This document shows positions 8,307-23,610 of a DNA stretch of 23,610 bases, in pieces. Under the pieces are notes generated by a model. The model ran no database searches, had not been told where the DNA came from, and saw only the letters and a program-made list of their open reading frames with translations. The position numbers and the translations under genes were made by a program. Within the stretch, counting starts at the first letter, position 1. Each line of letters starts with the position of its first letter. The stretch is from contig JASEGJ010000018.1 of assembly GCA_030018135.1 (NCBI GenBank), positions 1 through 23,610 on the forward strand. The letters are read 5' to 3'. Source of the DNA: Candidatus Hodarchaeaceae archaeon (GTDB taxonomy: Archaea > Hadarchaeota > Hadarchaeia > Hadarchaeales > Hadarchaeaceae).

Positions 8307-9101
8307 ATGCTTGCAGCTCCAATTTATGGCGTACCTGCCCTAAGGATAAACATTGAACGGGAGCGCGTGTTAGTTGCGGCAGACTTACACTTAGGTATAG
8401 AAGGGGAGCTGGTTGCTCGCGGTGTTTCACTGCCCAGCCAAATACCCAAAGCCAAGGCAAGACTGATCGAGCTGATCAAACAGCATAAGCCGGATCGTCT
8501 GCTTTTTTTGGGGGACGTGAAACACAACGTGCCCATCGCGACTTGGCAGGAGTGGAGGGAGCTGCCGGATTTCTTCGCCAATCTGGCCAAACTCGCGCGC
8601 GTGGAGGTCATACCCGGTAACCACGATGGCGATATCGAGGGCATGGTATCGCCCGGGGTAATCATCCATGATTTTAAGGGCGTGGTATTGGGGAGGCGCA
8701 GGCGGATAGGTCTCATACACGGCCATGCGTGGCCCAATCCAAGCGTGCTGAATGTCGAGCTACTTGTGGCCGCCCATAATCACCCGGCCGTTGAGTTCAG
8801 GGACGAACTCGGGGCACGCACGATTGAGCACGTTTGGTTGAGGTGCAAGCTGGAGCCGAAGAAGTTCCCGAAGAAGCTTCGGGGTGCGATCGAGGGCGAC
8901 GGTCCTGAGTTATTGGTGATGCCTGCCTTCAGCGAGCTGGTGGGTGGTGCCGCGGTAAATAAATCCATACCCGAGGAGCTTCTCGGCCCCATGTTTAAGG
9001 CTGGTGCGGTAAAGCTCGATGAGGCAGAGGTCTACATGCTAGATGGAACTTTCTTGGGCACCATAGCCGCCCTGAGGAAGTTGAGGGGGGCCAAGCATTG
9101 A
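8307..9101 (+). CDS. Metallophosphoesterase of the helicase-associated (MJ0037-like) family
   Basis: A calcineurin-like metallophosphoesterase of about 264 aa. All metal-binding motifs are present: ADLHLG (D-x-H), LFLGDVKHN (GD), VIPGNHDGD (GNHD), LIHGHAWP (GH) and VAAHNHPAVEF. The C-terminal part ends with LLVMPAFSELVGG, which is typical of this subfamily. Homologues are often found next to a DEAD/DEAH helicase. Here the last four bases overlap the start of lhr, so the two are almost surely one operon and may act together on DNA or RNA ends. The start is uncertain: ATG 8307 is given, but GTG 8298 and TTG 8292 are closer to the expected transcription start after the TTATAATTTA box near 8269. 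Confidence 0.87.
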   Translation: MLAAPIYGVPALRINIERERVLVAADLHLGIEGELVARGVSLPSQIPKAKARLIELIKQHKPDRLLFLGDVKHNVPIATWQEWRELPDFFANLAKLARVEVIPGNHDGDIEGMVSPGVIIHDFKGVVLGRRRRIGLIHGHAWPNPSVLNVELLVAAHNHPAVEFRDELGARTIEHVWLRCKLEPKKFPKKLRGAIEGDGPELLVMPAFSELVGGAAVNKSIPEELLGPMFKAGAVKLDEAEVYMLDGTFLGTIAALRKLRGAKH

Positions 9102-11767
9102 GCATCGCGTCGCGTATGAGGGTGGGCGAGCCCCTCGAGCGGTGGGCCGCGGTCAGGTACGCCCGGCGACCATCCAGCGACGAAGAGAGCTTGGGTTGCT
9201 TGGAGGAGTACGTACGCGAGTGGTTCCACGGAAACTTTAGCGAACTTACCCCTCCGCAGCAGTATTCGTTTAAGCTCATATCGCAGGGCAAGAATGTCAT
9301 AATCACCGCGCCGACTGGCAGCGGCAAGACCTTAGCGGGTTTTCTGGCTATTCTCAGCGACCTCTTCAGGTTGGGTGAGCGCGGCAAACTTCAAGATAGC
9401 GTCTACTGCATTTACATCTCTCCTTTGAAGGCGCTCGATAACGACGTTCGTAAAAACCTGCTGGTGCCCCTCACCCAAATCAGGGAGATAGCTCGAGAGC
9501 GAGGTATAGAACTCCCCGAGGTGAGAATCGCCGTTAGGACGGGTGACGTCCCGCCACATGAAAAGCAGAGGCAGCTTAAACTACCTCCCCACATCCTCGT
9601 CACGACGCCGGAAAGCGTCGCCGTCTTACTAAATGCTCCTAAATTTGTACAGCACCTGAAGACGGTACGATGGGTTATCGTCGATGAAATACATGAACTT
9701 GCAAACAACAAGCGCGGCGTTCATCTCGCCCTTTCGCTTGAGCGATTACGTGAAGAGGTCGGAGCAGAATTTCAACGGATAGGTATGGGAGCCACCCTTC
9801 ATCCGCTTGAGGAGGCAGCGAGATATCTCGTGGGCAGCGATGACGAGGGCAGGCCTAGAAAATGCACGCTCGTCGACGTTAGTTGGTACAAGCCATTTGA
9901 CCTACAGGTCATGAGCCCTGTGCGAGATATCGTTCGAACGAGCGCTGGTCACATAAATGCGGCCCTTTACAGACTTCTCGACAAGCTCATAAGTTCGCAC
10001 ACCACGACGCTCGTGTTCACGAACACGAGAAGCGGCACGGAGCGGGTTAGCTATCACTTGAAGGATCGCTGGCCTGAGCGCTACAACGATGAAACGATAG
10101 GCGCTCATCATGGCTCACTTTCTCGAGATATTCGCTTAGATATCGAGGAGCGCCTGAAGAAAGGTATGCTAAAAGCCGTCATATCCTCGACCTCGCTTGA
10201 GCTGGGCATAGACATAGGCTACATAGACCTCGTGGCGCAGATAGGCTCGCCGAAAAGCGTAACCCGCGCGGTGCAGCGAATAGGGAGGAGCGGCCATAAG
10301 TTCAGGGATGTGGCGAAGGGCAGGATGATCGTGCTCGATCGGGATGACTTGGTCGAGTGTGCAGTTATGCTCAGGTGCGCTGAGCAGCGAAGGCTCGACG
10401 AGATAGATATGCCCTCGAACTGCCTCGACATTCTCGCGCAGCACGTCGTGGGAATGGGGCTGGCCAAAAAGTGGACCGTGCGGGATGCGCTTCGTGTGGT
10501 GAGGCGGGCTTACCCCTATCGCAACTTGGGTGAGGAAGACTTCAAAGCGCTGCTCCACTATCTCGCAGGCCACTACGCATCGCTCGAGGATCGCCGCGTA
10601 TACGGCAAGATATGGTACGACGAAAGCGACGACATGTTCGGTCGACGCGGCAAGTACACCCGCATCATCTACTACCTAAACCTCGGCGCCATCCCGGACG
10701 AGGTCAAGATAGATGTCTATCGGCACCGCGACCGCCGCTACATCGGTGGCATAGAGGAGGGCTTCCTGGAGCGCCTTCGTCCCGGCGATATCTTCGTGCT
10801 CGGGGGCAGGCTCTACAAATTTAGGTTTGCCAGGGGTATGCGATGCTTCGTCGACGATGCACCGAGGGGCGCGGTGCCGACCATCCCATCATGGTTCTCG
10901 GAGATGTTGCCCCTGAGCTTCGACTTGGCCCTTGAGGTTCGGAAATTCAGGGATGAGATGAGGCGAAAGCTCGATCGACGCGAGCCCAAGGAAAAAATCG
11001 TGAAATGGTTGCTAGAGGAATATCCGATGGATGAGAGGGCAGCAAACTCGCTGTATGAATACTTCAGGGAGCAGTACCTCTTCACTCATGGCAAGGTGCC
11101 GGCGAGCGACGAGTTGCTGGTCGAGCGCACCTATGACCTCGAGGGGAGGCGCTACTATGTATTTCATTCGCTTTTCGGGAGGCGAGTCAACGAGGCCCTC
11201 TCTAGGGCGGCCGCGATAATCGCTTCCAATATGCTCGATGCAAACGTGGCCGTTATCTTGAGCGACAATGGATTTGCGATGATGGTCCCGAGCGACAAGG
11301 AGCTAGATATCGAAGGGCTCGTTCGAGAGCTCACGCGCGTCGATCTCGAGGGGCTACTCAAGGCGAACATAAGGCGCACGGAGCTGATGAAGCGCAGGTT
11401 CAGGCACTGCGCGGCCAGAAGCTTTCTGGTGCTCCGAAATTATAAGGGCTACAAGATAAGCGTCGGCAAGCAGCAGCTCAGCTCTCAGACCCTGCTCAAC
11501 GTTACCGAGGAGATCGACTTGAACTTTCCCGTGATAAAGGAAACATACCGCGAGATCCTCGAGGACACGATGGATGTTAAGAAGGTGAAGCTCGTGCTCG
11601 ATTGGCTCAGAGATGGCAAACTCAAGCTCGATGTAATTTCGACGGATGTGCCGAGCCCGTTCGCCCACAACCTCATCGTGCTCGGCGAGGCCGATATCAT
11701 CCTGATGGAGGACCGCAAGAAGCGCCTGCTACAGCTTTATGAGGCCGTGATGAAGCGGATAAAGTAA
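9098..11767 (+). CDS. lhr: Lhr-type superfamily 2 ATP-dependent helicase
   Basis: An 889-aa helicase. Walker A is TAPTGSGKT (about 70-78), the DEIH box is IVDEIHEL (196-199), and motif VI is VQRIGRSGH (about 393-400), giving two RecA-like domains. The Lhr core follows, with a winged-helix region and the Lhr-specific C-terminal domain (WYDESDDMFGRRGKYTR, ALSRAAAIIASNMLDANV). The length fits archaeal Lhr proteins, which unwind DNA or RNA:DNA duplexes and recognise forked DNA. TTG 9098 overlaps the upstream phosphoesterase stop, with a G-rich GGGGGG ribosome-binding site. The gene is intact over 2.7 kb, with no internal stops. Confidence 0.94.
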   Translation: MSIASRMRVGEPLERWAAVRYARRPSSDEESLGCLEEYVREWFHGNFSELTPPQQYSFKLISQGKNVIITAPTGSGKTLAGFLAILSDLFRLGERGKLQDSVYCIYISPLKALDNDVRKNLLVPLTQIREIARERGIELPEVRIAVRTGDVPPHEKQRQLKLPPHILVTTPESVAVLLNAPKFVQHLKTVRWVIVDEIHELANNKRGVHLALSLERLREEVGAEFQRIGMGATLHPLEEAARYLVGSDDEGRPRKCTLVDVSWYKPFDLQVMSPVRDIVRTSAGHINAALYRLLDKLISSHTTTLVFTNTRSGTERVSYHLKDRWPERYNDETIGAHHGSLSRDIRLDIEERLKKGMLKAVISSTSLELGIDIGYIDLVAQIGSPKSVTRAVQRIGRSGHKFRDVAKGRMIVLDRDDLVECAVMLRCAEQRRLDEIDMPSNCLDILAQHVVGMGLAKKWTVRDALRVVRRAYPYRNLGEEDFKALLHYLAGHYASLEDRRVYGKIWYDESDDMFGRRGKYTRIIYYLNLGAIPDEVKIDVYRHRDRRYIGGIEEGFLERLRPGDIFVLGGRLYKFRFARGMRCFVDDAPRGAVPTIPSWFSEMLPLSFDLALEVRKFRDEMRRKLDRREPKEKIVKWLLEEYPMDERAANSLYEYFREQYLFTHGKVPASDELLVERTYDLEGRRYYVFHSLFGRRVNEALSRAAAIIASNMLDANVAVILSDNGFAMMVPSDKELDIEGLVRELTRVDLEGLLKANIRRTELMKRRFRHCAARSFLVLRNYKGYKISVGKQQLSSQTLLNVTEEIDLNFPVIKETYREILEDTMDVKKVKLVLDWLRDGKLKLDVISTDVPSPFAHNLIVLGEADIILMEDRKKRLLQLYEAVMKRIK

Positions 11768-12830: not shown

Positions 12831-13439
12831 GGCAGTACGAATAGAAAAAAGGAAGTTGCAATCATCTTGCTGGCCATCGTCATCTCAACATGTCTGTGGC
12901 TTGTACCAGCTATGAGATCGACCCCAGAACCCCTTCTCCTTCCTTCTAAACCGCCTGAAATGGACGAACGCAGCATTGGTAATCCCCTCACGCTCGAGGA
13001 GGTCAAGGAAAGGGCATCGTTTCCCATCCTGATCCCAACTTACGTGCCCGAAGGCATACAGTTAGAGGAAATAAGAGGATTAAGGGGTCACTTGTGGTCG
13101 CCGGAAGACAACCGACTGATCTCAGATAACTCCTATTGGGAATTTCGGTTCTTCTTCTCCAAGGAGAACCTCGTCCTAACCATCAGCCGATCGTACCAAA
13201 AGATGACGCTCGAAGGACTCAAGCGCGCTTTCGTGGAGGAATATCCCAAATACCGCAGGTTAGTCGAAATTAATGGGTCACCTGGCTTCGTCCAAGAAAG
13301 TCACGTCAACCTTGTTGGCGAACAACTACCAGTGTTTTTAGACTGGTGGAACAACGACCTATACCTGAAATTCGCGATCAGCGGTTTTCTTCCGTCCGAA
13401 GAGCTGATAAGGATGGCGGAGTCATTGAGACCCGCCTAA
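12822..13439 (+). CDS. Membrane-anchored DUF4367-like protein
   Basis: A 205-aa protein with an N-terminal membrane anchor (KKEVAIILLAIVISTCLWLV) and an outside domain resembling DUF4367: LTLEEVKERASFPILIPTYV, a strand-rich middle, then LVEINGSPGFVQES, VFLDWWNNDLYLKFAI and EELIRMAESLRP. Such domains occur in anti-sigma-factor-like or sporulation-related proteins in bacteria; the role in archaea is unknown. TTG 12822 is chosen because GGTGAT ends three bases upstream, the same arrangement as carS. The frame is continuous with the Ig-like remnant upstream, so this could instead be the tail of a broken larger protein or a fusion made by deletion. Confidence 0.6.
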   Translation: MHEGSTNRKKEVAIILLAIVISTCLWLVPAMRSTPEPLLLPSKPPEMDERSIGNPLTLEEVKERASFPILIPTYVPEGIQLEEIRGLRGHLWSPEDNRLISDNSYWEFRFFFSKENLVLTISRSYQKMTLEGLKRAFVEEYPKYRRLVEINGSPGFVQESHVNLVGEQLPVFLDWWNNDLYLKFAISGFLPSEELIRMAESLRPA

Positions 13440-13446
13440 GTTCCTC

Positions 13447-13948
13447 ATGGGGAGAAAGTCATCTATGGTGGGGGGACGAGCACATGAAACCCTGCACCGG
13501 TCGTTAAAGCGACGCCGGATCGTTGGATTCATAGCATTCGGTTTCGCAGCTGCAGGAGTTGTGGTTTTATGGGGCCATATCCAGAAAAGAGCACCCATCC
13601 CCAGCTCACACTTCCTCCAACAGCCTTGGGTTGAATTACTCCAAGATAACGTAATCTTAGAACCAGGGGAGACAAAAGAGATCTATTGCATCTTGAGAAC
13701 TAAGTACTATTCCGCAAGCGAAAACTGGATCGTGAGCTATACTGGACTCGACGGAAGGCCAGCTTGGCCCGAAGGCATGAGGATCTATGCCCCCATCCGA
13801 AGGTGGGGCCCTACGAAAATGCCTTCATTCCGGTAACCATCGAAACCGACTCTGGGCTCAGACCCGCGTATACGTATTCTATATGGGCAACGATTATTCG
13901 CCGAAATGGCCAGCTAAGCTCACCTTGAAGGTTGAAAGGGCAGAATAG
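13447..13948 (+). pseudogene. Membrane-anchored secreted protein, frameshifted, unknown function
   Basis: The first frame (129 aa, to 13836) has a basic N-terminus and an anchor (IVGFIAFGFAAAGVVVLWG), then a beta-rich part including LEPGETKEIYCILRTKYYS. After about 13795 the sense continues in another frame as PKVGPYENAFIPVTIETDSG and LRPAYTYSIW. After about 13900 it continues in a third as YSPKWPAKLTLKVERAE, ending at 13948. The joined product looks like an Ig-like or CARDB-like sandwich domain, with alternating strands. Two indels are needed. It follows the DUF4367-like gene by seven bases and was probably co-transcribed with it. Confidence 0.6.
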
Positions 13949-14124
13949 GAAACGGTGCGATGTCGAGCTCGGTATCCCTTGCTGGCTCCGCATTATGAGT
14001 TCCGAGCAGGTAGAGGTGGCCAGAGAATAAGAGTCATTCACTGACTTATTGTTCGTTTGAAAGGAAAACTTTCGGGATAAACCTTTTTTCCAAAAATGAT
14101 GTTACATAAGCATAAGGCGGGCCG

Positions 14125-19059: not shown

Positions 19060-19340
19060 AAATCTCTACCTCCTTTATTTCTAAATCCTAACTCTCTCCG
19101 TTTCCTTTTAAGAAGCCGCTCCACCTCGGCATTACTCACACGGTTGATCTCCTCGAGGTAACTTCGCGGAAAATCTTCGGTCAGCTCCTCAAGCTTGAAT
19201 CGCTCGGCTTCTCGTTCCCAATGTTTTATTAAATCGCTCGACACCCGCCCAGAAAACTCCTTCACGTAGCGCTCGTGTACTTTCTTCTGTGTCAATAATG
19301 CCGCTGGTTTCTTTATTTTACGTTGTTTTCCCAAGCTCAC
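19056..19340 (-). CDS. Small charged protein (94 aa), unknown function
   Basis: The product is highly charged and helical (EREAERFKLEELTEDF, NAEVERLLKRKRRELGFR), with a basic N-terminus KQRKIKKPA. No cysteines or membrane segments are present. GTG 19340 lies inside the end of the nucleotidyltransferase-like gene (23-base overlap), and its stop overlaps the start of the 301-aa gene by four bases. Such tight packing suggests the three are made together. Size and charge would suit a small partner or antitoxin-like component, but this is inference only. Confidence 0.65.
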   Translation of the reverse strand: MSLGKQRKIKKPAALLTQKKVHERYVKEFSGRVSSDLIKHWEREAERFKLEELTEDFPRSYLEEINRVSNAEVERLLKRKRRELGFRNKGGRDL

Positions 19341-20250
19341 GCAACTCCGCAGATGTTTTCTCCCACTCTACTATTGCTTTCCTCCCCAATCTCTTGACCA
19401 CCCCGTCGCTCACGCTTACCCGTTTCCCCACCCTCACCTTCCTGCATACTTCCCGAAGCTCTTTAAACCCTGCAAAGCGCTCCGCAAATTCCTTCTCCAA
19501 CATCTTGCCCGAGAAGTTGCCTTGCACAGCGAGTGCACTCACTATTGTCCGCCTTGCCCCTCTCGTGATCCAGTAACAGGCAATGTCTTGCATGTCCTTT
19601 CGGGCGGCAACAATACCGCGTAGGATGCTTTCCTTGGCCGCGAGGAGTTCAACAGCGATGTGTTTGGGTGTGACCCGTGTAGCCCGGAGGATCCCCATGA
19701 GGCCAAAATCCAAGATAGTGGCACCGTCCCGCTCCACCAGCTTGAGAAAAATCGGATCCTTTTGTAAAAATCGCTCAAAATCCTGTATGCTCAAAACCTC
19801 AGCATCAAACGTGGGGGTGCGCTGCTCAATAGCGGGTATCCTTGAAAGCATTTGTCCCTTGGCCTCTTCGGACCGAACGATGACAAGGAAGTCCCAATCA
19901 CTGAGTTCATCTGCTCCGCCCCATAATCGGGAGCCGTAGAAGACCAGGCTTTCGAGATTATTCATGGAGTCTCTTAGGAGTTCCGCTAGCTCATTGCTGA
20001 TTTCGGGGACCTTGGTCAAGAACCGGTGAATGCGTACCCACCTTTCGGGTGGCACAAGTAGGTGCTCCCCTCTGCCGACTTTATCGACAAGCAGCGCTCT
20101 TCGCATCTCATGTAGGGCCACGCTAGCGTAGTTCTTACCAACTGCCCAACACCTAGAAGCGGTCAATCTATCAACGACTCGCGGATAGCTACCGTCCAGA
20201 TCAAAATACCGTTTGACAACCCACTCCGCTGGCCACACATCAACACCCAA
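19318..20250 (-). CDS. Nucleotidyltransferase-fold (MNT-like) protein with N-terminal helix-turn-helix-like region
   Basis: A 310-aa protein. The pol-beta-type nucleotidyltransferase motif is LVFYGSRLWGGADELSDWD, continuing FLVIV, with GS at 106-107 and D-x-D at 118-120. A later acidic position, TFDAEVLS (149-151), could be the third carboxylate, so the active site looks complete. Residues 1-90 (YPRVVDRLTASRCWAVGKNY, LLVPPERWVRIHRFL) look like a winged-helix domain. The C-terminal part is helical, without an RxxxxxH HEPN motif that I can see. MNT proteins often neutralise HEPN toxins by AMP transfer or act in defence. TTG 20250 is given; GTG 20238 is possible. A T8 tract lies just upstream and may be both a terminator for the methylase gene and part of a promoter. 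Confidence 0.7.
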   Translation of the reverse strand: MGVDVWPAEWVVKRYFDLDGSYPRVVDRLTASRCWAVGKNYASVALHEMRRALLVDKVGRGEHLLVPPERWVRIHRFLTKVPEISNELAELLRDSMNNLESLVFYGSRLWGGADELSDWDFLVIVRSEEAKGQMLSRIPAIEQRTPTFDAEVLSIQDFERFLQKDPIFLKLVERDGATILDFGLMGILRATRVTPKHIAVELLAAKESILRGIVAARKDMQDIACYWITRGARRTIVSALAVQGNFSGKMLEKEFAERFAGFKELREVCRKVRVGKRVSVSDGVVKRLGRKAIVEWEKTSAELRELGKTT

Positions 20251-20262
20251 TTTAAAAAAAAC

Positions 20263-20892
20263 TTAGTTATTTATTAAGTTAACTATTTGCTGCCTCCCTA
20301 AATTTTCCCTTGCCCAATTTATCATAGCTTTCGCTTCTTCTAGTGTCTTCTCAAATAGTTCAGCGTCAGCGTACTTCGCGGGGAACTCCACCGTTGATCT
20401 AAGTAATAGAAAAGCGAGAGGGTTGTACTCCACGGCAATTGTTTTGAAACCGAGTCTAAGCGACTCAAGCGGTATAGCGCCTCCTCCTGCCATAGGATCA
20501 ATGACGGTGATTTGCTCGGGTCTCCTCCCCAATCTGGCTAGAACACTTGAGAGTAGTGATCTGTCAGGATCGGTATAAAAAAGAAGCGGCGGAAATTTCG
20601 TGCTAAGCCTCACTTTTGGTATACCTAAAATTTCTTCGAAAACTTTTTTATCAATCTGTGAAGGAAGTAACGAAGCGAGATTAAGTGATCTAGCTATACC
20701 ACAAGGTCTACGAGCAAACCACGTATGTATACTACGTAGCTTGGGATCATAATTACTTCCTTTTCGGCTCAGTCCTAACTTGTCCCGCAGTTCCCCATAT
20801 TTTGGTTTGAATGATTGTTCGAACGAGGCATCAACGCTTAGCGCACGTAACGGTAACCAGCTTTCAATTAACTTTTCTCTCACTTTCATCAT
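20263..20892 (-). pseudogene. DUF1156-type N6-adenine DNA methylase, truncated after motif I
   Basis: The N-terminus matches the DUF1156 pattern: REKLIESWLPLRALS, then an insert, then IHTWFARRPCGIARS. The SAM-binding motif is VIDPMAGGGAIPLESLRLG, followed by TIAVEYNPLAFLLLRSTVEFP. The protein stops at 209 aa (LINN), whereas family members are usually several hundred residues longer and carry an N/DPPY catalytic motif and zinc-binding cysteines that are absent here. The remainder is not found in any frame downstream, because a different gene starts 12 bases later, so a deletion or insertion has replaced it. ATG 20892 overlaps the stop of the 172-aa gene by four bases. No methylation activity is expected. 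Confidence 0.75.
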
Positions 20893-21407
20893 CTCTTAAG
20901 CTTCTTCTCGGCTATAGAAAAGAAGCTCTTCATAGAAGCGGAGACGGCATCCGCGACTTCTGGTAAAATCGTCCCACTAACTTCACGACTCTTCCTATCT
21001 TGCCTGAGGGTCGTGGAAAGGTCAACCCCCATGAGCATAAAGTTTGCAAAGTGTTCTCCTAGCATAGATTGCGGACCACTGAGTACCTTGCTGAAAACAT
21101 TGCTCCACTTACTCGGGTTTCTACTTCGCCTCAAAAGCAAGATATATGAACCAACAGTAGGAGCAAGGTCTGCCCTCACGAAATACTTCTTTCTTTTGGG
21201 GGTACTCTCGAGAAGCTTGATGCCCCCACAAGTCGATAACGAGGCCAACAATTTCTCATGCGCTTCCCTCGCGGGTTTCCCTGTTAACTTAACAAGTGTG
21301 ATGGGTAGCTTGGCACCTTTCGTCGAGCACAACATCAACTTTAGTTCGCGCCCACGGGGTCCTTCGTAAACTAGAGAATAATCCGATTCCGTCAGGTTGC
21401 CCACCAC
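20889..21407 (-). CDS. Unknown protein (172 aa) of the PglZ-methylase operon
   Basis: A soluble protein that I do not recognise. The N-terminal half is strand-rich (YSLVYEGPRGRELKLMLCST, KLPITLVKLTGKPAREA) and the middle has RKKYFVRADLAPTVGSYILL. The C-terminal half is helical and ends AEKKLKR. It starts at GTG 21407, 16 bases before the PglZ-like stop, and its own stop overlaps the methylase start by four bases. It is therefore a coupled member of this operon. Its fixed position between PglZ-like and methylase genes suggests an accessory subunit, which is inference. Confidence 0.7.
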   Translation of the reverse strand: MVGNLTESDYSLVYEGPRGRELKLMLCSTKGAKLPITLVKLTGKPAREAHEKLLASLSTCGGIKLLESTPKRKKYFVRADLAPTVGSYILLLRRSRNPSKWSNVFSKVLSGPQSMLGEHFANFMLMGVDLSTTLRQDRKSREVSGTILPEVADAVSASMKSFFSIAEKKLKR

Positions 21408-22232
21408 CTTTTGGTGACGAGGGCGAAGAAGGAGATCTTGCTCAAATCTGCTAGCCCCCTTCTACCATGCCCCACAAATAGGATATTGTCCTCCTCGTAT
21501 ACGTCATAGCCGTGATCAGTCGTTATAAGAATGGTCCAAGAAGGAAGTTTAGATTGCTCAAAGATTTGGTAGATTTTCTCCAAGCGGGCGTGAAAGGGTT
21601 GTTCTCTTCTTCGACAAATGAGACAACGTCGCCAATTTGATGATGAAGGGCCCTATCGGGAAGCGGGCATGTACTGAACCCACTTGCGCCAACCGATTTA
21701 GCAAGCTCAGCAGCATAATCACGGAGCCTGTTTTTCTCAACTTGGTTTTGAACGAATGACGTTACACCGATGGGATTAACGAAGACCTGATCGCTCAGAC
21801 CTGCTGCGAGCCCGGTTCTTTTTGCCGTAACCAGAAGTGATGCAAATTCTATAGGTGAAAATGCATCAATGACTAATACATGGTTCGTCCTATTTTTATA
21901 ACGCCTCTCAGCTTCCTCGTAAACACGACGCAGGCTCGCTTCTTGGTCTATGGTCGCCTCTTGGACGCAGCTAGATATGGTATGAACCACGTCGGTTGCG
22001 AGCACGCTGAGTCTTTCCGCGGCCGCGCGAGCACTTTGAATTCCAATCTTGGCTTTAATAGACTGGAGAACCATTTGGTAATCCTTGTATTTCCCCTTTA
22101 GGTTTAAAATAGCTTCCAAGAACGCTGCAAATGTAACGTTATGTATCAATCTTGCTTTATTTACCATTCGAGGGAGTAAGTTATCGAGTTTTCTGAGAAC
22201 TTTTTGATAGCTTCAGGCGGATACAATCTCAT
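21392..22232 (-). pseudogene. PglZ-like alkaline-phosphatase-fold protein, split by two frameshifts
   Basis: Three pieces make one protein of about 275 aa. ATG 22232 directly follows the stop of the 410-aa gene and gives 23 residues (ending ITYSLEW) to a stop at 22161. The next frame from 22167 gives 214 residues, including HVLVIDAFSPIEFASLL (the position of the family's catalytic/metal aspartate) and FVNPIGVTSF. The third frame from 21583 gives the C-terminal metal site ILITTDHGYDVYEE and VGHGRRG. The second break lies around 21587-21597, where one lost base restores FHARLEKIYQIF. Small PglZ-domain proteins occur in BREX- and Pgl-type defence loci. The 23-residue N-terminal piece is less certain than the C-terminal join. 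Confidence 0.68.
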
Positions 22233-22234
22233 CA

Positions 22235-23446
22235 CTACTTCATCTTTTTGGCTAATTCCTCAAGTACTGCTTTAATCCTATCCGCGGGCAATCCCTTTTT
22301 CAATAAAATCTGAACATCCGCCGGAGCACCGTATCTACTTAAAATCGAGGCAAGCGCACCAGATATGGAGACTAGATCTTCAAATCTGCTTTTTATCTCC
22401 ATCGACATTTCAATGTTTTCTGTTTTCGAGCTGACTTTGATTTTATCTGGTTCACCAAGTCTGCCACCTTTAACTACTTGCGCCAAGCTACGTATGTCAG
22501 GTACGCTTAATCCTGTTAAAACAATTTGGTTCTGCAGTGGGCCGGCAGGTGGTCCTTCTTCGACCGGCGGCCCAACCAGAGGAGCCAGAGGTGCCATCAC
22601 TGCTTTAAATTTCATCGCTCCAGCTTCGATTGCGATCTCAATAAGGCTACCATCAGGGAGCTCTGTTTGAATCCCGTTTAGTCGTTCAACCGCCATTTTG
22701 GCTAGCTCGCCATTTAAGGGAACGATGCCGTAGACGCCCTGTAACAAGCTTTCCACGACATCGTTGACAGATAGTTCAGAGATCAAGCCTTTCTCCAAGC
22801 GCTCTCTGATGTGCTTCTCGACAACTTCTTCCAGTTTGTTTACGTCCTCGACATATCTCGTTACGACAATTCCCTTGAAAAAGCTTCCGAGAATATCAGC
22901 GTACTTATTCAAATCCACGGAAGTCACCTCAGATAAAGATTCGGTAGTTTTCCCAACGAGCTTTGAGATATCTTCGTGCACGAACGCCCTTTTGACTAAA
23001 TCATAAGCAACGATTCGCCGGTACAACGTCAGCAGGTTAGACACGGCCTCACGAGCCAATCGCATCATTCTCGCTTGAGTAGCGCTATTTGCCACGCCAA
23101 CTTCGATTTCAACCCGTTGTTGAATGATTCTCTGCAACTCTCTTCGACTAAGTTCGAACCGTCGAACAGCTGCGCTAGCAACAGCTTTTTCCATGAGCTC
23201 GCCAAGCACACTGGTTTTATCTTGGAGATACTCGAGAAATCCCCTTGATGCCTCATATTCAGCAACAGCATCAAGTAGCGAGTTCAATGTCGCCTCTTTG
23301 ATGTTCGGTACAAGGGAGAGGAGATACAAGGGCCTAGCAATTTTTTCAATTGAATCGTTCATTTTACTAGCAAGCTCGGCGATGAGGCCCGTAAAGCCTT
23401 TCTCATCCAGCCTGTGAGCAAGATAAGCATCCCAAGGATCCCCCAT
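22235..23446 (-). CDS. Helical protein, first gene of the PglZ-methylase operon (403-410 aa), unknown
   Basis: A soluble, mostly helical protein. Residues 1-240 or so are rich in L, E and A with coiled-coil-like stretches (FELSRRELQRIIQQRVEIEV, EEVVEKHIRERLEKG). A segment NDVVESLLQGVYGIVPLNG follows. A proline-rich linker (APLAPLVGPPVEEGPPAGP) separates a C-terminal domain ending DVQILLKKGLPADRIKAVL. There is no Walker A motif. It occupies the operon place that a DUF499- or BrxC-type ATPase takes in related loci and may be the C-terminal part of such a protein, but this is a guess. ATG 23446 is given; TTG 23467 lies closer to the expected transcription start. It is intact in this frame. Confidence 0.7.
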   Translation of the reverse strand: MGDPWDAYLAHRLDEKGFTGLIAELASKMNDSIEKIARPLYLLSLVPNIKEATLNSLLDAVAEYEASRGFLEYLQDKTSVLGELMEKAVASAAVRRFELSRRELQRIIQQRVEIEVGVANSATQARMMRLAREAVSNLLTLYRRIVAYDLVKRAFVHEDISKLVGKTTESLSEVTSVDLNKYADILGSFFKGIVVTRYVEDVNKLEEVVEKHIRERLEKGLISELSVNDVVESLLQGVYGIVPLNGELAKMAVERLNGIQTELPDGSLIEIAIEAGAMKFKAVMAPLAPLVGPPVEEGPPAGPLQNQIVLTGLSVPDIRSLAQVVKGGRLGEPDKIKVSSKTENIEMSMEIKSRFEDLVSISGALASILSRYGAPADVQILLKKGLPADRIKAVLEELAKKMK

Positions 23447-23483
23447 AGAATGTTTCGATCTTTCCAAACAACATTAGTGCAAA

Positions 23484-23584: not shown

Positions 23585-23610
23585 TGGTGGGGTCGCCGAG
23601 ATTTGAACTC
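23585..23610 (-). tRNA. tRNA gene, 3' end only (cut by window edge)
   Basis: Read on the minus strand, the T-loop TTCAAAT is followed by CTCGG (T stem 3' half), CGACCCC (acceptor 3' half), A (discriminator) and CCA, which here is encoded in the DNA. The preceding bases GAG match the T stem. The 5' acceptor half would be GGGGTCG, outside the window, and the anticodon is not visible, so the amino acid is unknown. Confidence 0.75.

Follow-up and report, generated by a model that had tools for sequence, protein, structure and literature searches.

A probable remnant of a compact, helicase-less BREX-Related defence operon in an archaeal draft genome, and its intact archaeal relatives

This analysis concerns a stretch of 23,610 nucleotides (the window), which is the whole of contig G000:C9; the contig belongs to an archaeal draft genome of 1.1 Mb (45 contigs, 93% complete). 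The window carries what is probably a decayed copy of a compact, helicase-less BREX-Related defence operon that would be guided by methylation, with PglZ as its probable effector. In its intact form the operon consists of a DUF1156 methylase (M), a DUF499-like ATPase of about 1,060–1,100 aa (A), a compact PglZ of about 275 aa (Z) and a protein of 158–172 aa (S). Complete copies occur in seven archaeal genomes and incomplete ones in others. A first-pass annotation of the window had recognized a PglZ and a DUF1156 methylase and had proposed a BREX/Pgl-type defence operon; both identifications were borne out by profile matches, and judged by homology the defence reading appears to be right.

The operon in the window

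Four genes with operon spacing occupy positions 20263–23467 of the minus strand in the order A-Z-S-M, as the first-pass annotation had listed them. The S and M ORFs share a 4-nt overlap, so that A-Z-S-M, as against M-A-Z-S in the intact loci, looks like a genuine operon order in the window. The features are as follows.

22235–23467, minus strand: 410-aa ORF, C-terminal remnant of a DUF499-like AAA+ ATPase (A), by BLASTP and profile match
22164–22232, minus strand: open frame (MRLYPPEAIKK...) just past the ATPase stop, putatively assigned as the start of PglZ in a third frame
21523–22167, minus strand: PglZ-like 214-aa ORF, matching a compact-PglZ profile built without it (E 5.5e-08)
21526–22212, minus strand: first large piece of compact PglZ (Z), with the conserved D, NPxGxT and DxxxH (profile positions 66–207, E 3.7e-08)
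21395–21652, minus strand: C-terminal piece of compact PglZ, read in a different frame and holding TTDHGYD and the conserved H that follows (profile positions 214–272, E 1.2e-09)
20889–21407, minus strand: S, complete gene of 172 aa, 32% identity over 144 aa to the S of L032
20263–20892, minus strand: M, N-terminal fifth of a DUF1156 N6-adenine methylase, 209 aa, 56% identity to the G337 methylase; Pfam DUF1156
23587–23610, minus strand: tRNA-like 3′ end, cut by the contig end and adjoining the ATPase remnant; sequence GTTCAAATCTCGGCGACCCCACCA

Among the four window ORFs, Pfam and PADLOC recognized the methylase alone and did not recognize the PglZ. The S gene is the sole undamaged one of the four. 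At C11 the tRNA-like 3′ end recurs with 2 mismatches; ARAGORN found no complete tRNA. Beginning 12 bp past the truncated methylase is a nucleotidyltransferase-fold protein (19318–20250; Polbeta/NTP_transf_2, weak; PADLOC PDC-S09 30.9 bits), which may belong to a defence island. Elsewhere in the genome, a weak PF08665 PglZ match at G000:C1:10155–10724 proved to be another, 362-aa protein.

Intact relatives and the four protein families

The window methylase fragment matched Pfam DUF1156 (2.6e-05), PADLOC HmaB (2.3e-15) and PHROG 10183 (6.4e-18), and its closest relatives were in genomes G337 (56% identity), G234 (48%) and G377 (46%), at 143–202 bits, with other DUF1156 methylases at 81 bits or less. 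The loci in G337 and G377 are intact, as the first-pass annotation had anticipated when it called the window copy broken and pointed to intact relatives. In G377 (Ca. Methanodesulfokora washburnensis; L034, L113) methylase, ATPase, PglZ and S have 996, 1052, 275 and 161 aa; in G337 (an Acidilobaceae MAG; L032, L120) they have 1002, 1100, 278 and 172 aa, with a BrxL of 475 aa in addition. Further members were sought with a profile of these two ATPases, run on the phylum of G337 and then on genome contigs. Complete M-A-Z-S operons occur at L112, L113, L097, L114, L115 and L117, and a complete M-A-BrxL-Z-S operon at L120; L116, L118 and L099 (M-A-BrxL) are partial, and L119 and L103 are more distant, with M-A-Z and no detectable S. 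Spacing in complete loci ranges from 8-nt overlaps to 28 nt, one start-codon assignment excepted. Chance as the origin of the operon was rejected, since six to seven genomes share the four-gene order, at 20–60% identity. In the phylum of M. washburnensis 1 genome of 29 had the system, and in that of G337 about 7 of 398, the weaker L102 and L103 loci counted; the phylum of the window genome is represented by 28 genomes in the sample. One genome, G768 (Thermoprotei archaeon B14_G17), has both an M-A-Z-S operon (L115) and the M-A-BrxL locus (L099) of the clade.

Intact methylases retain DPMAGGG, the CxxC pairs and DPPY, match Pfam DUF1156 (8.1e-11 in L034/L113) and match PADLOC HmaB down to 1.5e-45. 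When tested as PglX/BrxX they were of the DUF1156/HmaB type, with the PglXI model reaching a mere 32.6–33.7 bits. The methylases of 13 loci, that of the window among them, make up a single clade (SH-aLRT 100; 1 change, with 0 of 500 shuffles as low), which a long branch separates from 48 other DUF1156 methylases, helicase-linked ones included, in a tree that holds no confirmed Type-3 BREX-Related locus. Within the clade, the window fragment clusters with the two BrxL-bearing loci (support 98).

The first-pass annotation had counted the 410-aa helical protein and the 172-aa protein as two unknown partners. The second of these stands, but the first is, judged by sequence, a fragment of the DUF499-like AAA+ ATPase of about 1,060–1,100 aa and no separate protein family: in BLASTP it aligns over 321 aa with the 1100-aa L032 ATPase, at residues 649–969 (30% identity, 117 bits), and it matches the ATPase profile at model positions 708–1022 only. 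The annotation's link from DUF1156 methylases to DUF499 ATPases held within the operon itself. Searched as a single sequence, the 410-aa protein had no homologues in 198 relatives, in plasmids (tblastn) or in a scan of genome contigs, and PDB sequence searches with it and with the ATPase profile gave nothing useful. The intact ATPases carry a P-loop, [MF]GxGKTH, and a DE box. Profile comparison makes the ATPase a distant relative of DUF499 (hhalign 99.9%, E 9.5e-32, 642 columns), with no match to Pfam DUF499, 11.7 bits on NCBIfam DUF499_antiphage (cut-off 1200) and a weak match to PADLOC HmaC (best 3.6e-10).

The window PglZ ORF scored 48.9 bits against an intact counterpart. Across eight members of the compact family D118, N146, G149, T151, D194, H198, D240-H241-G242, D244 and H256 are invariant, and every predicted metal-site residue is kept. 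An NPP/alkaline-phosphatase metal site would show its residues in this order. An AlphaFold model of the compact PglZ (pLDDT 81, pTM 0.84) resembled PorX at VIA Z 10.6–11.9 over 224–235 residues and the Acinetobacter BREX PglZ 9zn5 at Z 8.2 (4.7 Å, 215 residues), and the top 18 Foldseek hits of the model were all PorX or PglZ. In a PDB search with the PglZ profile the best hit was ENPP4, weak and aligned in the DxxxH and DHG motifs. By order, T151 (L113 numbering) and H256 would match the positions of the catalytic Thr and His, for which the tested residues are T272/H500 in PorX and T538/H741 in E. fergusonii PglZ (PMC12205998). Nuclease activity of PglZ has been published for Type-1 BREX (PMC12205998), and BREX PglZ binds BrxB through residues 1–98 (PMC13326643). 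The compact PglZ starts in the helical linker and has no BrxB-binding part, which fits the absence of a recognizable BrxB.

The window S (77.8 bits to the S of L032) falls in one family with S of six further genomes, and among the loci examined S is confined to the M-A-Z-S system. Its model (pLDDT 81) has the order beta-beta-beta-alpha-beta-beta followed by four helices, with no alternating P-loop-like strand order. The best structure match in the PDB, at VIA Z 4.9, named no fold, and a PDB sequence search with the S profile gave nothing useful. DUF7680 was rejected as the family of S: two members matched weakly (E 0.042 or worse), and a genome search for DUF7680 had no match anywhere, its controls being silent too. 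S is thus a conserved protein without a recognized family or matched fold, for which a role as adaptor is proposed.

Relation to named systems

The closest published system is Type-3 BREX-Related (BR), which comprises a DUF499 ATPase, a DUF1156-type methylase, a BrxHII-like helicase, a standalone PglZ and a fast-evolving small iSTAND protein (Rakesh & Krishnan, NAR 2026, PMC12839542). The proposal in the first-pass annotation that the system was undescribed therefore has to be narrowed, as the combination of DUF499 and DUF1156 proteins with standalone PglZ was published in 2026, while the part that survives is the intact locus without a helicase. Within the open-access PMC literature the intact M-A-Z-S variant looks undescribed, and single members are possibly included in published data sets. 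Like Type-3 BR, M-A-Z-S has a DUF499-like AAA+ ATPase, a standalone PglZ without BREX fusions, a DUF1156-type N6 methylase with a zinc-finger insert and one small fast-evolving protein. The operon differs from Type-3 BR in having no BrxHII-like helicase, and its ATPase is too distant for Pfam or NCBIfam DUF499.

An alternative explanation, possible but unlikely, is that M-A-Z-S is a divergent Type-3 BR system with its helicase elsewhere in the genome and with S as a diverged iSTAND protein. Three of the five defining parts appear to correspond (DUF499 ATPase, DUF1156-type methylase, standalone PglZ; PMC12839542), but several observations speak against it. Five BR helicase probes matched none of 19 clade records and all of seven positive-control loci. 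Of the conserved neighbours suggested at the outset the ATPase was found; a helicase was found neither within the operons nor in the several kb of flanking sequence available on at least one side at L112, L097, L117/L101 and L120/L032. The M. washburnensis, L114–L116, L118 and L119 loci lie near contig ends, where an off-contig helicase is possible. In addition, the strand order of the S model is not the alternating P-loop-like order of an iSTAND protein, though the lack of a fold match is no proof on this point, and the methylases belong to a separate deep clade, although in a tree without a confirmed Type-3 BR locus. Plasmid DUF1156 loci, considered as Type-3 BR references, had no PglZ. The BR operon at L111 has an MBL protein at the supposed PglZ position.

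M-A-Z-S shares with Hma and Type-1 and Type-2 BR (HmaA-HmaB-HmaC) an HmaB-like methylase and an ATPase weakly like HmaC, but it is without the HmaA helicase-nuclease and has PglZ and S. With BREX Type 1/4 it shares a BrxC-like ATPase plan, the fold of the PglZ catalytic domain and, in L120 and L099, a true BrxL, whereas its PglZ of about 275 aa has neither the N-terminal domain that binds BrxB nor the C-terminal one, and its methylase is of DUF1156 type rather than PglX. BrxA, BrxB and DUF6079 had no match among the operon proteins, and the view that this is not a standard BREX gene set is upheld. Like the PglZ domain of PorX, the compact PglZ consists of a helical linker and NPP core with, by order, a Thr nucleophile and His site; unlike PorX it has no response-regulator receiver domain and occurs in another context. 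Homologues of the window proteins did not all fall in one named subtype with the same gene order.

BrxL was found in two loci of the clade only; in L120 it scored 475 bits on TIGR02688 (cut-off 329), and it is absent from the other complete loci and was not found in the window genome. A second BREX-related locus of Ca. Methanodesulfokora (L062, G377:C122, 452–9835) encodes a divergent DUF1156 methylase, a DUF499 ATPase (145 bits on the NCBIfam model, under the cut-off), BrxL, a 300-aa PglZ (VVTGDHGY) and small ORFs. Its methylase falls outside the M-A-Z-S clade and its contig has no helicase, a gene set which suggests that a helicase may have been swapped for BrxL more than once. We give about equal weight to either side of the question whether M-A-Z-S stands as a BREX-Related type of its own, archaeal and with four genes, in which compact PglZ would be the sole effector, a helicase would not be needed, S would be a new adaptor replacing BrxB or iSTAND, and BrxL would be an optional module.

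Decay and proposed function

Decay of the window copy is extensive. The ATPase has lost its first ~645 residues, including the N-terminal AAA+ part, and the methylase has lost ~800 residues, so that the DPMAGGG SAM motif is retained while the DPPY catalytic motif and the zinc-finger TRD are gone. The PglZ is broken into pieces that lie in at least two frames. It is improbable that this damage is an assembly artefact and that the genome has an intact operon. Frame breaks do affect another, unrelated gene here: that for a B12-binding radical SAM protein (190–1564) is split over several frames (SSRGCPFGCTFC motif in a third frame) and is either a pseudogene or the product of indel errors. Single frameshifts in this contig may thus be sequence errors; the contig also ends 140 bp past the ATPase remnant. 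However, the two large truncations cannot be sequence errors: both sit inside the contig, and the ATPase N-terminus and methylase C-terminus were not found in any of the 45 contigs. Given both truncations, the window copy is non-functional whatever the status of the frameshifts. A second decayed remnant is present at L033 (G234:C79, 4448–5272), a truncated methylase of M-A-Z-S type, ~200 aa with 48% identity, alone among unrelated genes.

BREX has a complex made up of methylase, ATPase, BrxB and PglZ, the last of these being a nickase that depends on metal and has a part in defence (PMC12205998, PMC13326643). By analogy with BREX, M would place a mark on host DNA at a particular site, and A, as a DUF499/BrxC-like AAA+ protein, would build up the complex on DNA and link restriction to the check for methylation. 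Z, as an NPP-fold metal phosphodiesterase, could then nick or cut unmarked invading DNA, with S possibly bridging as adaptor or sensor in place of BrxB or the iSTAND protein. Searches for a link to phages or viruses found none, for S in phages or for the methylase, PglZ and ATPase in viral contigs, and tblastn found no plasmid homologues of the 410-aa and 172-aa proteins. The ends of tRNA genes are common integration sites. Two other readings, in which the operon would not be antiviral defence but a DNA-modification complex with an epigenetic or regulatory role or a module for element maintenance, are very improbable. Although no phage link was found, the defence role is predicted from the genes and the window operon adjoins a tRNA-like end, all recognizable parts come from families known chiefly from BREX, BR or Hma defence, the sparse, patchy spread and decay fit a defence gene set, and BrxL is present in two loci.

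It is an open question how DNA is restricted by BREX and related systems, and systems of six genes are difficult to take apart. If the reading as a compact BREX-Related defence operon is true, a four-gene helicase-less set with a 275-aa PglZ and no recognizable BrxB would be about the smallest testbed, one that could show whether PglZ is by itself the effector, which task the ATPase scaffold has and what component the small partner stands in for. To our knowledge few defence systems are known in archaea, and the system would help to fill this gap. The Pfam, PADLOC and NCBIfam profile libraries miss its ATPase, PglZ and S. At the M. washburnensis locus (L113), a Dev_Cell_Death (DCD) domain protein is encoded just downstream of the operon (8636–9244), with a PD-(D/E)XK nuclease-like protein farther away (12944–14107).
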